Shown: piece by piece, positions 16,465 through 63,455 of the stretch
Position numbering within the stretch: position 1 is the stretch's first letter
Layout of the letters: each line of letters begins with the position of its first letter
NCBI GenBank assembly: GCA_022843745.1
Contig: JALHNB010000020.1
Coordinates: 1 to 64,000 of the forward strand
DNA: 64,000 nt
Source: Anaerolineae bacterium
GTDB taxonomy: Bacteria; Chloroflexota; Anaerolineae; Aggregatilineales; Phototrophicaceae
Reading direction: 5' to 3'
The notes under the pieces: model-generated
Seen by the model: only the letters and a program-made list of their open reading frames with translations
Told to the model about the DNA's origin: nothing
Database searches by the model: none
Made by a program: the position numbers and the translations under genes

Positions 16465-16765
16465 GGCGATTAGCTTTCAGCGATCAGCGGTCAGCATTTC
16501 AGCTTAAAGCTAAGGCAAAGGCAAAGGCAAAACACAATGTAATAGGTAAAATTGTAGGGGCGATCAGCGAATCGCCCCTATGGCGTTTTAAACACAGCAA
16601 ACCAAAAGGGGTGTTCAATCCTATTTTGGGTGGAAGCCTGGACGGTGTTACAATTTGAATGGGGCTGTTCGCATTGCCCGACAACCGCGCGACCATCAGT
16701 TGGCTCGCTGATAAAAATTCTTAACTCAAAATTTTAGCCTTGTCTTATTTGTGAAAGTAACGCTT
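16465..16765. repeat. Spacer with TTTCAGC words and a CCCCTA hairpin
   Basis: Just after the exporter stop are the words AGCTTTCAGCGATCAGCGGT and repeated AAGGCAAAGGCAAAGGC. At 16555-16580 a hairpin with arms TAGGGGCGAT and ATCGCCCCTA belongs to the CCCCTAC family and may serve as a transcription end. No gene is seen. Confidence 0.6.
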
Positions 16766-19819: not shown

Positions 19820-20302
19820 GGGAGGGATTCCTTTGGCATTACCAAAAATATTGTGGCGATTATACCGCGCAATCCCTCATGATGGTCATTTCGTGCGCTG
19901 CGAGTCGCATCAAATTCTATCCCTATCCCAAACCCCTTGTATCTTAAAGGGAGTGGGCAGGACAGATTTTGGGTTTGCACCGCCTGGGGTTCAAAACCCC
20001 AGGCTAGATGGAAAATCAAGTCCACTGAAAGTGGACTCCTGAAAGTCGTTCTGAGCTTATCGAAACTTCCTTGCAAACCGCGCTAGAAAAGTGTCCTGTC
20101 CTCAACCATTGTATGGAGAGGGGACTTTTCGTGACTATTCACGTTTACCTGAGAGGGCACGATACATCGTGCCCCTACGAAAACGTGGTCGCGTTATCCG
20201 TATTGAATTTTTAAACACTACGAGCAGCGTCAGCCGCTTGAGCTACGCAAAAATTACGGATACGTGCATAAATACTGAGGACTAGCAATCAGGGTAACAG
20301 CT
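19820..20302. repeat. Repeat-rich spacer with several hairpins
   Basis: Hairpins include 19983-20003 (CCTGGGGTT and AACCCCAGG, three-base loop), 20019-20037 (AGTCCACT and AGTGGACT) and a CCCCTAC-family palindrome at 20155-20178 with stem GGGCACGATACATCG. A tail containing GAGCTACGCAAAAATTACGG also occurs, diverged, near 63340. No gene is recognised. Confidence 0.65.
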
Positions 20303-28000: not shown

Positions 28001-28024
28001 GGGCGCACCGCCGTGCGCCCCTAC
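28001..28024. repeat. CCCCTAC hairpin family, GCGCAC stem
   Basis: The arms GGGCGCAC and GTGCGCCC flank a four-base loop and are followed by CTACGAAAACGGTTCACGAT. The same right flank (GAAAACGGTTCGCGA) is present at 63242 and partly at 18351, defining a sub-type. Confidence 0.7.
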
Positions 28025-31087: not shown

Positions 31088-31112
31088 GGGCAGGCCTCAG
31101 ACCTGCCCCTAC
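31088..31112. repeat. CCCCTAC hairpin family, AGGCCTCAGACCT stem
   Basis: The arms GGGCAGG and CCTGCCC frame CCTCAGA and are followed by CTACAGGCCATATTTGCAGA, the same flank sub-type as at 26054 and 10376. Confidence 0.7.
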
Positions 31113-34305: not shown

Positions 34306-34444
34306 GGAAGTCGATAGTCGTTAGCTTTTAGTCGTTAGCTTTTAGCTTGTCGGTGCTTCGGGAAGCAGCGAGTTTGGGAACTTTACATGTCAACAGAGAA
34401 GGGCGCAATATATTGCGCCCCTACAAGGATGGGGTTTCATTTTT
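34306..34444. repeat. GTCGTTAGCTTTTAG words plus a CCCCTAC hairpin
   Basis: Directly after the SGNH stop are tandem words GTCGTTAGCTTTTAGTCG. A hairpin with fully palindromic stem GGGCGCAATATATTGCGCCC (34401-34420) followed by CTAC belongs to the dispersed family. Confidence 0.7.
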
Positions 34445-35858: not shown

Positions 35859-35943
35859 GTGCCGAGTTTAAAGTGCTGAGTGCTGAGTTTCAGAAATTGC
35901 GTTTTCTCAGTACCCGGTACTCAGCACTTTTGACTGGATTGTT
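35859..35943. repeat. AGTGCTGAGT inverted words
   Basis: AGTGCTGAGTGCTGAGTTTC and, 35 bases on, GGTACTCAGCACTTTT form an inverted pair like the one at 6.4 kb, between the membrane peptide and the MBOAT gene. Confidence 0.65.
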
Positions 35944-37470
35944 ATGACTTTTGACCTCCTCGCTATTTTTATTGCGGTGATCGCTGCCGTCGTTTACACT
36001 GCGCTGCTCCCGGCGCGTTGGCGCGGCTGGGCGCTGATGATTGCCAGTATGATCGCCATTTATCGCCTGCAACCCGCGCTGCCGATTCGCTACCTCGATT
36101 TTATTTTGCCGACGGCGACGATTGTGATCGCTGTGGTGTGTTGGTGGGGGACGCGAAAGCCGGAACATGACGAATCTGCGAGGGCGCACAGCCGTGCGCC
36201 CCTACAAATTGCCTCTGAGGATCGGATTGCGTTGGGGGTGATTGCGGCGCTGGTGGTGGGGATGTCGCTGATGCGGTTCGTCGATGCGGATTTCCGGCTG
36301 ACGGCCTCGCGCCCGCCGGAGCCGCTATGGGTGATTGCGGCGTTGGTGGTGGTCGGGGTGAGTGTGGTCGGGGTGTCGGTGTGGGCAGGTCTCAGACCTG
36401 CCCCTACAGATGTCGATGGCACACAAAAAATATTCTCGCGGCAGCGGCGGGTGCTGACGGGCATGATTTTGTTGATTGTGCTGATTTTCGTGGTGTTCAA
36501 GACGGAGGCGCTGGCGACGGCATTGAGTCGATGGCTGCGGGCGCAGGCTGGGCAAGATATGTCGCTTGCCAGCATGATCGACCTCAATTGGCTGGGATTC
36601 TCGTACATCGCTTTTCGCTTGATTCACATGATGCGAGATCGGCAAAGCGGGCTACTCCCGGCGCTGACGCTGCGCGAAACGGTGACGTATCTGGTGTTTT
36701 TTCCGGCGCTGGTGGCAGGGCCGATTGACCGTGCCGAACGATTCGCCAAAGATTTCCGCGCACTGCGGGAAAAAATTGGCTTCGATGCGGGTCGCTGGAC
36801 GGAAGGAATCACGCGCATCGCCATCGGTATCCTCAAAAAATTCGTCATCGCAGACACGCTGGCGCAGGGGGCGGCGCTCAACGCTATCAACGCGGCACAG
36901 GCGAGTTCGACGTTGGCGCTGTGGGCGCTGCTGTATGGATATGCGCTGCGGTTGTTTTTCGATTTCAGCGGCTATTCGGACATCGCGATTGGCATGGGCA
37001 TTCTGTTCGGTGTGAAGCTGCCGGAGAATTTTGATCGTCCCTATCTCAAGACGAATCTGGCGGCGTTCTGGCAAAGCTGGCATATGACGTTGAGCAGTTG
37101 GGCGCGGTTTTACGTGTTTTCGCCGCTGTCCCGTGCGCTGCTGATGCGCAAGGTGAAGTCCGCACAGGTCGTTTTCATCACGCAGATGACGACGATGGGC
37201 GTGATCGGCTTGTGGCATGGCGTGACGCTCAATTTTTTGATCTGGGGTGTGTGGCATGGGATGGGGTTGTTCGTCCATAAGCAGTGGACAGACCGCACGC
37301 GGGCGCGGTATATGCGGCTGAGTGATCGGCAAAAACGCGCAGTGATGGTCGTTTCGTGGTTCGTCACGTTTCATTTTGTGGTGATCGGCTGGGTGTGGTT
37401 CGGGCTGCCGGATGTGGGGGAGTCGGTGAGGGTATTAGCGCGGCTGGTGGGGGTCACGCTCGTGCTATAA
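35944..37470 (+). CDS. MBOAT family membrane-bound O-acyltransferase with two repeat-derived insertions
   Basis: The 508-residue polytopic protein carries the AlgI/DltB-type core: FFPALVAGPIDRAERF, FFDFSGYSDIAIGMG, WQSWHMTLSSWARFYVFSP, and GLWHG with invariant His425 plus WHG with His438. It should transfer acyl groups from a cytosolic donor across the membrane onto a glycan, with the SGNH protein downstream as partner. Residues 80-88 (AHSRAPLQ) and 147-155 (WAGLRPAPT) are direct translations of CCCCTAC palindromes; both sit in the poorly conserved N-terminal part, so the enzyme may still work. Confidence 0.87.
   Translation: MTFDLLAIFIAVIAAVVYTALLPARWRGWALMIASMIAIYRLQPALPIRYLDFILPTATIVIAVVCWWGTRKPEHDESARAHSRAPLQIASEDRIALGVIAALVVGMSLMRFVDADFRLTASRPPEPLWVIAALVVVGVSVVGVSVWAGLRPAPTDVDGTQKIFSRQRRVLTGMILLIVLIFVVFKTEALATALSRWLRAQAGQDMSLASMIDLNWLGFSYIAFRLIHMMRDRQSGLLPALTLRETVTYLVFFPALVAGPIDRAERFAKDFRALREKIGFDAGRWTEGITRIAIGILKKFVIADTLAQGAALNAINAAQASSTLALWALLYGYALRLFFDFSGYSDIAIGMGILFGVKLPENFDRPYLKTNLAAFWQSWHMTLSSWARFYVFSPLSRALLMRKVKSAQVVFITQMTTMGVIGLWHGVTLNFLIWGVWHGMGLFVHKQWTDRTRARYMRLSDRQKRAVMVVSWFVTFHFVVIGWVWFGLPDVGESVRVLARLVGVTLVL
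36182..36205. repeat. CCCCTAC hairpin inside MBOAT reading frame (copy 1)
   Basis: GGGCGCAC, loop AGCC, GTGCGCCC, then CTAC: 24 bases, a multiple of three, read in frame as part of the acyltransferase. Confidence 0.8.
36383..36407. repeat. CCCCTAC hairpin inside MBOAT reading frame (copy 2)
   Basis: The GGGCAGGTCT and AGACCTGCCC arms are followed by CTAC. It is read as WAGLRPAPT, a peptide that recurs in many genomes carrying this repeat (recollection). Confidence 0.8.
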
Positions 37471-37489
37471 TTCGATTTTGGGAGGCGCA

Positions 37490-37843
37490 ATGATAACGGA
37501 TGAACTTCTTGAGCAACTGCATAAGGTGGATCGCGTTAATAAACTGCGAATTATTCAATTTTTGGCGGCTGATCTGATTGCGGAAGAAGAGACTGTGTTA
37601 GCTACACCCGACACATCCGAAACACTAAACGAGTTGCTTTCAATACCTGCTGAGGAGGCATTCGCCGCATTTCAGAATGACCTTCGTTTGCCATTTGGTT
37701 CTATTGAAGCTATTGTGGCAATCCTGGAAGAAGACCTTCCACAAGAACATCAAGAAGCTATTAAAGCACTACAAAAGAATGTCAAAAGTATCCGAAATAT
37801 GCTCGATATCGCTTTGAATTATCTGGAAATGCGCAAGAAATAA
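37490..37843 (+). CDS. Small helical protein with a histidine-kinase-dimerisation-like C-terminus lacking His
   Basis: The 117-residue soluble protein has two parts. The N-terminus (ITDELLEQLHKVDRVNKLRI) resembles helical leaders of small regulatory proteins. Residues 61-117 (FQNDLRLPFGSIEAIVAILE, then ALQKNVKSIRNMLDIALNYL) follow the pattern of a HisKA helical hairpin (HDLRTPL...), but Asn63 stands where the phosphoacceptor His would be. If correct it is a non-phosphorylatable dimerisation module. GGGAGG four bases before ATG 37490 fixes the start. It ends seven bases before the SGNH gene, so they are co-transcribed. Confidence 0.55.
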   Translation: MITDELLEQLHKVDRVNKLRIIQFLAADLIAEEETVLATPDTSETLNELLSIPAEEAFAAFQNDLRLPFGSIEAIVAILEEDLPQEHQEAIKALQKNVKSIRNMLDIALNYLEMRKK

Positions 37844-37850
37844 ATCCTAA

Positions 37851-39248
37851 ATGGCAAAATGGGATTGGCTCGAAAAATCACCCGCGACGTGGGGATTTGT
37901 GCTGCGGGTCGTCGTCAAGGCGGCGATTCTGTTCGCGCTGTGCAACGTGATTTACGCGGCGCTCAATCCGCTGGAAGCGTTGGGGCGAGTCTCGCTGTAT
38001 AACACGCTGCTGCCGGGGCGTGAACGCTTGCCCTACGGCGAAAACCCTGAGCAATCCTACAGCCTGAGTCTCAATAATATTCCGGCGATGTTCGCCAGCC
38101 ATGTGATTTCGCGTCCGAAGGCTGAGGGCGAATTTCGCGTCGTGCTGATCGGCGATTCCGGCGTGTGGGGGTGGTTTCTGGCGAATGGGGATACGTTGGC
38201 GGGGGTGATGAATGAACCTCTCCCCCAGCCCCTCTCCTTGCAAGGAGAGGGGAGTCAGGGGAGTCAGAGCAGTGATTACACGATATCACAATTCATAAGG
38301 GCGCAGCACGCTGTGCCCCTACAGATGAAGGCGATGGAGACAAGGGCATGGCACGCCATGCCCCTACAACCCGTTGGGTTTGCGTCACAGGTGGAGCAGA
38401 GTGGGGTGGTTGTTTATAATGTGGCCTATCCCATCATGTCGCTGACGAAGGATTTGCTGCTGCTGGACGAGGCGATGCGCTATCAGCCGGATATGATCGT
38501 GTGGCTGGTGACGTTGGAATCATTTCCGCGCGAGAAGCAGCTTTTTCCGCCGCTGGTGCAAAATAATGCCGCGCGAATCCGGCGGTTGGTGGAGGCTTAT
38601 GATTTGCGGGTCGTTGACAATGTAGGCCAAACGTCACCCCCCAACCGCGTTCGCGTATCCGCAAGCAGAGAGGGGGAGCCAGAAAATGGCGATCCTGGTA
38701 TCGCCGACAACATCAATGATCGTGAAGCATCCCGACTCATTGAGCCGAATTTTTTTGGGCGCACACTCATTGGTCAGCGGCGCGACGTGGCGGACTGGCT
38801 GCGCTTGCAGTTATACGGATTTTCGTGGGCGGCGACGGGAATCGACCAGTATATTCCTGACGAGATTCCGCTGCGGCAGTCGGATTTTGAGGTGGACGAA
38901 AGCTGGCAGAATTTTGATGTGCCGACAACGCTGACGGCTGACGATCTGGCGTTTGATGTGTTGGCGGCGGGCATCGAACGGGCAGGGAATGTGCCTGTGC
39001 TGATTATCAACGAGCCGATTTTTATCAGCGAAGGAGAAAACAGCGATCTGCGCTACAACAGTTGGTATCCGCGCTGGGCGTATGACCAGTATCGTGATTT
39101 GTTGGCGCAAGAGGCGCGTGTGAACGGCTGGCAATATGTCGATCTGTGGGACAGCATTGACGCGGCGGAATTTACAGACAGCCCAGTACACCTCACGGCG
39201 GCAGGAACGCACATTTTGGCGGAGCAGGTGCGGAATATTTTGCCGTGA
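37851..39248 (+). CDS. Membrane-anchored SGNH-like hydrolase (MBOAT partner) invaded by repeats
   Basis: The 465-residue product has an N-terminal membrane anchor (about 15-38), block I GDSGVWGW (101-108) and a C-terminal DSPVHLTAAG with Asp443/His447, the layout of DltD/AlgX-like partners of MBOAT acyltransferases. Two tracts are repeat-derived: about 122-175 (a C-rich hairpin and two CCCCTAC palindromes) and about 262-277. Despite these, the frame stays open end to end. The first insertion follows block I by only 15 residues, so folding there must tolerate a long loop. The gene closely follows the small helical protein. Confidence 0.8.
   Translation: MAKWDWLEKSPATWGFVLRVVVKAAILFALCNVIYAALNPLEALGRVSLYNTLLPGRERLPYGENPEQSYSLSLNNIPAMFASHVISRPKAEGEFRVVLIGDSGVWGWFLANGDTLAGVMNEPLPQPLSLQGEGSQGSQSSDYTISQFIRAQHAVPLQMKAMETRAWHAMPLQPVGFASQVEQSGVVVYNVAYPIMSLTKDLLLLDEAMRYQPDMIVWLVTLESFPREKQLFPPLVQNNAARIRRLVEAYDLRVVDNVGQTSPPNRVRVSASREGEPENGDPGIADNINDREASRLIEPNFFGRTLIGQRRDVADWLRLQLYGFSWAATGIDQYIPDEIPLRQSDFEVDESWQNFDVPTTLTADDLAFDVLAAGIERAGNVPVLIINEPIFISEGENSDLRYNSWYPRWAYDQYRDLLAQEARVNGWQYVDLWDSIDAAEFTDSPVHLTAAGTHILAEQVRNILP
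38217..38256. repeat. C-rich/G-rich hairpin inside SGNH reading frame
   Basis: A perfect 24-bp palindrome at 38229-38252 (half-site CCCCTCTCCTTG) is preceded by CCTCTCCCCCAG. It is the same family as the intergenic copies, here translated as PLPQPLSLQGEG. Confidence 0.8.
38299..38322. repeat. CCCCTAC hairpin inside SGNH reading frame (copy 1)
   Basis: GGGCGCAGCACGCTGTGCCC followed by CTAC: 24 bases, in frame, encoding RAQHAVPL. Confidence 0.8.
38344..38367. repeat. CCCCTAC hairpin inside SGNH reading frame (copy 2)
   Basis: GGGCATGGCACGCCATGCCC followed by CTAC: 24 bases, in frame, encoding RAWHAMPL. Its stem differs from copy 1 but remains self-complementary. Confidence 0.8.
38634..38680. 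repeat. C-rich repeat remnant inside SGNH reading frame
   Basis: CACCCCCCAACCGCGTTCGC and CGCAAGCAGAGAGGGGGAG resemble the intergenic C-rich/G-rich repeats (compare 24237-24274). The tract is translated as SPPNRVRVSASREGE. Confidence 0.7.
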
Positions 39249-39267: not shown

Positions 39268-39292
39268 GGGCGAAGCAGCGCCTCGCCCCTAC
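39268..39292. repeat. CCCCTAC hairpin family
   Basis: GGGCGAAGCAGCGCCTCGCCCCTAC is split here as the arms GGGCGA and TCGCCC followed by CTAC. It lies between convergent genes, just after the SGNH stop. Confidence 0.65.
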
Positions 39293-40671: not shown

Positions 40672-40961
40672 GGGCACGATGCATCGTGCCCCATATACAC
40701 CAACTTAAGGGAATTTAGGGCATCCTCTCGCAACAAGCAGTCGCCGATTGCCCCGTCCGCCGTAGGCTGGAAGCCCTACGGCTAGGTTTCAAAGCCCTCT
40801 CAAAGAGGGCTACCTGGCGCAATCTGGTTTTTCAGCCTGCTTCGAGCAGGCTTGCTTCCATTAGCCAGGTGGCTTCTAGCCCCTGGCAACGTAATAATGA
40901 CATTCATCGGCATCAAGATCGTTCTTAAGTTGGTGCATATGGGGCACGATGCATCGTGCCC
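40672..40961. mobile_element. 290-bp non-coding element with 38-bp terminal inverted repeats
   Basis: The left arm 40672-40709 (from GGGCACGATGCATCGTG to CACCAACTTAAG) and the right arm 40924-40961 are inverted with one mismatch. Each arm contains a CCCCTAC-family palindrome at its outer end. The 214-base centre holds further hairpins, such as AGCCCTCTCAAAGAGGGCT and GCCTGCTTCGAGCAGGC, but no gene. It looks like a composite MITE or two palindromes in inverted orientation that could move together. Confidence 0.65.
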
Positions 40962-41225
40962 CTACGAAATGCGTTACCGATTTATTTTGTTCACAAGCAT
41001 TATCATGCCCCCACGCGGATCATTGCCGATTTATTTTGTTCACACCATCATTGCGTCCCTAACGGAGATACCGAACCTTAGGATCGATACTAAGTGATAC
41101 AGTTGCCGAAATAAATGATTCTCTTTCCGATTATACACCGAAGAAACAGGGCAATTTTATCGAAAAGCGCCTTAAAATCGTGAACTTTCGATGAGGGTGT
41201 GTCACGCTGAAGGCGCGGCGAAAGT
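40962..41225. other. Spacer with CGATTTATTTTGTTCACA direct repeat
   Basis: The tract GATTTATTTTGTTCACA occurs twice (about 40979 and 41027), with related flanking bases (GTTACC, CATTGCC). No gene is recognised. Confidence 0.5.
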
Positions 41226-63211: not shown

Positions 63212-63455
63212 AGGCTAAGAGCGTGCCCTGATGGATGTTAAGGGCGCAAGGCTGTGCGCCCCTACGAAAACGGTTCGCGATAACCGAATTATTTGCGGGA
63301 CAGAGCAATCATCGTGCCCCTACGAGCAGTGTAACCCGCCTGAGCGACGCAAAAATCACGGATACATGGATAAATACTTCCTTACAAACCGCGCCGAACA
63401 AACCGCGCCGAAAAGTGTCCTGTCCTCAACCTATGATGCCAAATTTCAACACAAC
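63212..63455. repeat. CCCCTAC hairpin plus GCAAAAATCACGGATAC tail
   Basis: A palindrome at 63242-63265 (arms GGGCGCA and TGCGCCC, then CTACGAAAACGGTTCGCGA) matches the sub-type of 28001. The following GAGCGACGCAAAAATCACGG resembles the tail at 20243. The open frames here translate repeat DNA and are not genes. Confidence 0.7.

Follow-up and report, generated by a model that had tools for sequence, protein, structure and literature searches.

Six short palindromic repeats lie in frame within two genes on a 64,000-nt stretch of contig JALHNB010000020.1 from an Anaerolineae bacterium (Chloroflexota); this whole stretch is referred to below as the window, and its contig is labelled C20 among those of the genome. 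The genes encode a membrane-bound O-acyltransferase (MBOAT) and an SGNH partner protein. Our analysis indicates that the CCCCTAC palindromes among these repeats are probably copies of a GTAG-tagged family of repetitive extragenic palindromes (REPs), surviving in frame within loops of the MBOAT-SGNH pair, and that the peptides they encode are tolerated by-products.

The MBOAT gene (35944..37470, + strand; DltB/PatA-like, 508 aa; PF03062, E=2e-22) carries two GTAG palindromes, and the SGNH/GDSL gene (37851..39248, + strand; 465 aa; PF13472 at E=2e-4, below the cut-off) carries two GTAG and two C-rich/G-rich palindromes, all six in frame and on the + strand. In MBOAT, the sense GTAG palindromes at 36182..36205 and 36383..36407 are read as RAHSRAPLQ (residues 80-88; RNA fold z -3.6) and WAGLRPAPT (residues 147-155; z -3.7). 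In SGNH, a C-rich/G-rich palindrome at 38217..38263, read as PLPQPLSLQGEGSQG from residue 123, is followed by two sense GTAG palindromes at 38299..38322 (RAQHAVPLQ) and 38344..38367 (RAWHAMPLQ), a close pair in tandem orientation, and by a degenerate C-rich/G-rich palindrome at 38634..38680, read as TSPPNRVRVSASREGEPEN. The four GTAG-tagged palindromes are 24-25 nt each. Five of the six repeats fold well as RNA (z -3.1 to -3.8; -14 to -31 kcal/mol); the copy at 38634 forms only a weak hairpin (z -1.2), yet its peptide, TSPPN...REGE, is like the others of the C/G-rich class. The positions of the six repeats, the openness of both reading frames throughout and the division into four CCCCTAC and two C-rich/G-rich hairpins, all claimed in the original prediction, were borne out by the sequence and the open reading frame (ORF) check, and the counts of both families were far above those of the controls.

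Each protein was aligned with 29 homologues from relatives and, separately, with a larger set (48 homologues for MBOAT and 57 for SGNH), nearly all from metagenome-assembled genomes named as Anaerolineae or other Chloroflexota. In the set of 29, residues 77-87 and 146-161 of MBOAT and residues 123-156, 167-185 and 255-289 of SGNH were missing from nearly all homologues; in the larger set, the extra residues were 81-87 and 153-166 in MBOAT and 123-140, 144-178 and 255-289 in SGNH. Judged from these sequences, the extra residues are insertions that coincide almost exactly with the repeats: 77-87 and 146-161 with the two MBOAT copies, 123-156 with the first SGNH copy and 255-289 with the last, the tandem pair also lying within inserted sequence. 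Both proteins have conserved homologues without the in-frame insertions, the gaps fall at the repeats in both alignment sets as the original prediction had anticipated, and the peptides that it had called foreign to the host families are indeed absent from nearly all MBOAT and SGNH homologues. AlphaFold2 models of the two proteins, with a mean predicted local distance difference test score (pLDDT) of 83.6 and 89.3, placed the SGNH inserts in segments with pLDDT <50 (137-143, 152-181 and 259-291), most of the core exceeding 90, and the MBOAT inserts in the loops between helices 51-70/91-112 and 127-147/161-186, with block means of ~55-65. The inserts are predicted by these models to occupy disordered surface or inter-helix loops, with both enzyme cores staying confident, for the most part above 90.

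Read from its tagged end, the GTAG element is GTAG-GGGC-core-GCCC, CCCCTAC being the reading of the other strand, and its single-stranded hairpin can be written as GTAGGGGC. The strict pattern AGGGCN{8,20}GCCCCTAC had 272 matches across the genome (7.96 Mb), compared with 8 when reversed, and a hairpin scan of 2.42 Mb yielded 269 matches against 5 in the reversed sequence, corresponding to 228 unique copies, 187 of which are tagged at one foot only. Among the perfect GGGC..GCCC hairpins, 155 of 180 had GTAG/CTAC at one or both feet, and the reversed control contained no hairpins, so an unpaired GTAG stands at the foot of a short stem-loop, as in the GTAG-REP superfamily. We found 101 core sequences, mostly self-paired, and 118 of 203 copies had fully paired core arms, a pattern of compensatory variation. 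The small dispersed repeats of Nostoc, hairpins of 21-27 nt with compensatory changes between copies, are alike by description only. According to gene calls made with our own hexamer model, 200 of the 228 copies are intergenic, 8 straddle the boundary of a gene and 20 are fully intragenic (2 of them probably spurious), where 200 would be expected; ~91% of the copies are thus wholly or partly outside genes. Copies are depleted in divergent spacers (8% versus 29% of spacer length) and enriched in convergent ones (29% versus 15%). REPs are likewise described as avoiding divergent and favouring convergent spacers in the survey by Di Nocera et al. (PMC3733652). As the copy number, which is high in mostly intergenic positions, the GTAG tag and the spacer preference match the published properties of GTAG REPs, the CCCCTAC palindromes were assigned to them; Rfam gave no match for the repeats. 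Relatives within the order commonly carry the family too: at least one matching copy was found in 89 of 101 relatives, several of them only at control level, and the richest were G021, G028 and G015, with 205, 93 and 75 matches. None of 88 copies in four other genomes (G076, G065, G015 and G021) was intragenic, by a gene model trained on the window's own genome.

Several points weigh against this explanation of the repeats. The inserts are longer than the bare palindromes, MBOAT having ~12 and ~16 extra residues at its two sites (hand count, set of 29), and no close sister genome with an empty site was found, the nearest homologues being ~60% identical. Moreover, double tagging, seen in 41 of the 228 copies, is not a feature of canonical REPs. 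No cognate RAYT (REP-associated tyrosine transposase) was found either: the genome has just one stand-alone Y1 gene, which is of the IS200 type, occurs in a single copy and is flanked by unrelated palindromes, no RAYT gene flanked by the repeat was detected, and copy-rich relatives such as G079 had no Y1 match at all. Recognition of the GTAG tag and the hairpin by RAYTs (TnpA-REP) has been published (PMC8266576). The survey (PMC3733652) presents association with a RAYT as frequent, though not universal, among the GTAG-REP families that it covers, and head-to-head or tail-to-tail dimers as frequent in many of them. A RAYT acting as a cis mobiliser was rejected on a Y1_Tnp search of 101 genomes, in which the matches in the window's own genome were the IS200-type gene, so assigned by NCBIfam, and a response-regulator fusion. 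At L160:1900-2030 and 1270-1300 (C101), AGCCTGCTTTGAGCAGGCT and AGCCGGATGGCTTTTAGCCTCCGGC-like palindromes flank the former; the latter (L185:6117-9551, that is C1:186117-189551) encodes a protein of ~1145 aa whose N-terminus resembles a response regulator and whose C-terminal domain is Y1_Tnp-like, and similar long ORFs containing Y1 are found across many of the order's genomes.

We propose that the GTAG-REP family, with its many cores and constant feet, spread within this Anaerolineae-type genome and among its relatives, its copies landing in many places and those in genes being nearly always purged. The surviving in-gene copies would be those that kept the frame and lay in loops at the surface or between helices. 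The MBOAT-SGNH pair would have been decorated by six such events, four of them due to GTAG-REPs and two to C/G-rich repeats, leaving the inserted peptides as by-products tolerated in disordered loops. Dispersal may have relied on single-stranded hairpins and on a HUH (Y1) nuclease that acted in trans or has since been lost.

In the 2.42 Mb scanned, the 18 bona fide intragenic copies fall in 13 genes, with 5 excess hits against 0.13 expected; among the host genes are those for a polysaccharide transporter, a beta-lactamase-fold hydrolase, a GH3 enzyme and a DUF2142 membrane protein, the last with three copies. In this discovery set, 17 of the 18 copies share one reading phase, in which the codon after GG is GCN (the foot G plus the next C), but only 3 of 6 hold-out copies do (L023 two copies, L291 two, L346 one and L109/L304 one, the last N-terminal and perhaps outside the gene). 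A strict phase lock was rejected on this hold-out result, although a preference remains: 20 of 24 copies in total are in the favoured phase, comprising 9 of 12 sense copies (null 1/3) and 11 of 12 antisense and symmetric copies (null 1/2). Stop codons do not account for this preference, and avoidance of Cys codons may account for part of it; all three frames are mostly free of stops in sense copies, as are two of them in antisense copies. Orientation was also biased on the contigs C15 (1-140000) and C20, both of which have a strong, nearly uniform GC skew. On C20, 21 of 22 GTAG-REP copies were in the '+' orientation, and on C15 all 6 copies to the left of ~9.5 kb were '-' and 28 of 29 to the right were '+', the flip coinciding with a GC-skew switch beside parA/parB (C15:4234-6353). 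The dnaA gene lies elsewhere, at C14:141090, on a contig without such a bias, and C15 and C20 may belong to a second replicon. A general dependence of orientation on the replication strand was rejected, since it is clear on C15 and C20 only and absent elsewhere. A broader reading, in which the GTAG palindromes are code-compatible in one phase (GCN after the GGG foot; RAxxxAPLQ, VGAxxxAPL), insert benignly or with a phase bias and so provide many proteins and lineages with loop peptides that resemble one another, with replication-strand-dependent orientation on strongly skewed contigs, appears rather unlikely.

The presence of four insertions in the SGNH gene and two in the MBOAT gene, the clustering of the intragenic copies in few genes and the lower coding fraction of the window's contig (0.82) would also be expected if MBOAT and SGNH were pseudogenes in decay, gathering repeats neutrally while their frames stayed open by luck. 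We consider this unlikely, because the frame is kept across six insertions, the coding scores of the two repeat-carrying genes are clearly positive, and the folds are predicted with confidence. In addition, both proteins keep every residue that is invariant across the aligned homologues, among them His425 of MBOAT and, in SGNH, the GDS motif at 101-103 and His447, which are invariant in 58 sequences. On these sequence features, the pair probably still works.

The two-tagged copies, in turn, are compatible with TA duplication around a GGGG..CCCC unit (GTA[GGGG..CCCC]TAC), as would be produced if a DDE transposase, rather than a HUH enzyme, moved the repeats, which would then be non-autonomous transposons resembling miniature inverted-repeat elements and not REPs. 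However, the C that follows TA is as conserved as TA itself (TAC in 238 of the GCCCC-footed hairpins, the next most frequent being TAT in 7), most copies are tagged at one end, and the cores vary while both feet are constant; this origin is accordingly improbable.

The same MBOAT loops have been struck by different repeats across lineages, as shown by three homologues: L289 has C/G-rich repeats at both query positions 81 and 274, L291 has a two-tagged GTAG palindrome read as VGARHAVPL at residues 77-85, and L346 has C/G-rich repeats at 157 and 274 with a GTAG-type copy near 274. These repeated strikes fit selective tolerance of the loops. It is very unlikely that the inserts were recruited for a function, as a loop regulating or joining MBOAT and SGNH or as an RNA hairpin slowing translation. 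In its favour, inserts are present in both partners of a single pathway, the three homologues carry different repeats in the same loops and five of the six hairpins are stable within the message, but unrelated peptides from different repeats at one site point to tolerance, most homologues have no inserts and the inserts are predicted to be disordered. Two further homologues, L284 and L309, have unrelated insertions at query positions 274 and 286, near a third MBOAT loop; these are repeat-like (ASGQWSVASENAVN..., VARSPITDYRLPATDYG...), which suggests further small-repeat families within genes.

The closest known kind of element is the intragenic GTAG REP. According to the 2013 survey (PMC3733652), the GTAG-REP superfamily, including GTAG-23 of Thermomicrobium roseum, has Chloroflexi members and shares with the present family a palindrome of 20-30 nt, GTAG at one foot, hundreds of copies, a mostly intergenic location that avoids divergent spacers, and a minority in frame within genes, sometimes several per gene. 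The window's genome differs in having GGGC/GCCC feet with ~100 cores in one genome, about one-fifth of copies two-tagged, no flanked RAYT found and an orientation that follows GC skew on two contigs; the 24 published families were compared by description rather than by consensus, and the present family may equal one of them. The original prediction had likened the repeats to the palindromic elements of Rickettsia, which also lie in frame in functional-looking genes and add a peptide loop, as outlined in PMC3733652 and PMC6649704, which cite the original work. The parallel stands in effect, across different phyla; a gene-specialised element is not what we found, given the GTAG tag and the share of copies outside genes. 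Because intragenic and Chloroflexi GTAG repeats are already described in PMC3733652, the case is less unprecedented than the comparison implied. The density of insertions in one acyl-transfer pair is nevertheless unusual. These results show that intragenic REP insertion also occurs in a widespread Chloroflexota group, and they provide a natural experiment in which, depending on the genome, distinct repeat families have independently entered the same acyltransferase loops, making measurable the tolerance of loops, the recruitment of repeat-derived peptides and the mover of GTAG palindromes without a RAYT. They also call for caution, as peptides of this kind in database proteins may stem from repeats and not be conserved motifs.

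As for the host locus, the MBOAT-SGNH pair looks like an O-acyl transfer pair of the DltB/DltD or PatA/PatB type. It resembles DltB/DltD and PatA/PatB (AlgI/AlgJ-X) in that an MBOAT gene is followed by an SGNH-fold partner, and the SGNH model had weak top fold matches to DltD and GDSL esterases. The pair differs in its repeat-derived loops and in falling under the curated DltB cut-off, MBOAT scoring 235.8 bits against TIGR04091 (cut-off 375). The two had been described as adjacent partner genes; the partnership stands, but they are not directly adjacent, being separated by a 121-aa ORF (37478-37843) without a Pfam match. In several relatives, MBOAT and SGNH are directly adjacent, without an intervening ORF. 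Upstream of the MBOAT gene (35860-35925) lie AAAGTGCTGAGTGCTGAGT and CTCAGTACC-GGTACTCAG repeats. The 12-mer AAAGTGCTGAGT ranks with the most frequent in the genome, and this is probably another dispersed repeat family.

The C-rich/G-rich palindromes are a family separate from the GTAG-REPs, with 77 clusters against 8 in the control; they too occur in frame within several genes, in all three frames at ~6:3:3 (hand count). Outside MBOAT and SGNH, the hairpin scan also located a two-tagged, symmetric GTAG palindrome at 16557..16581 (no strand assigned) and GTAG-REP copies on the + strand at 20155..20178, 28001..28024, 31088..31112, 34401..34424, 40941..40965 and 63242..63265, as well as one at 39268..39292 (+), directly downstream of the SGNH gene and between convergent genes.

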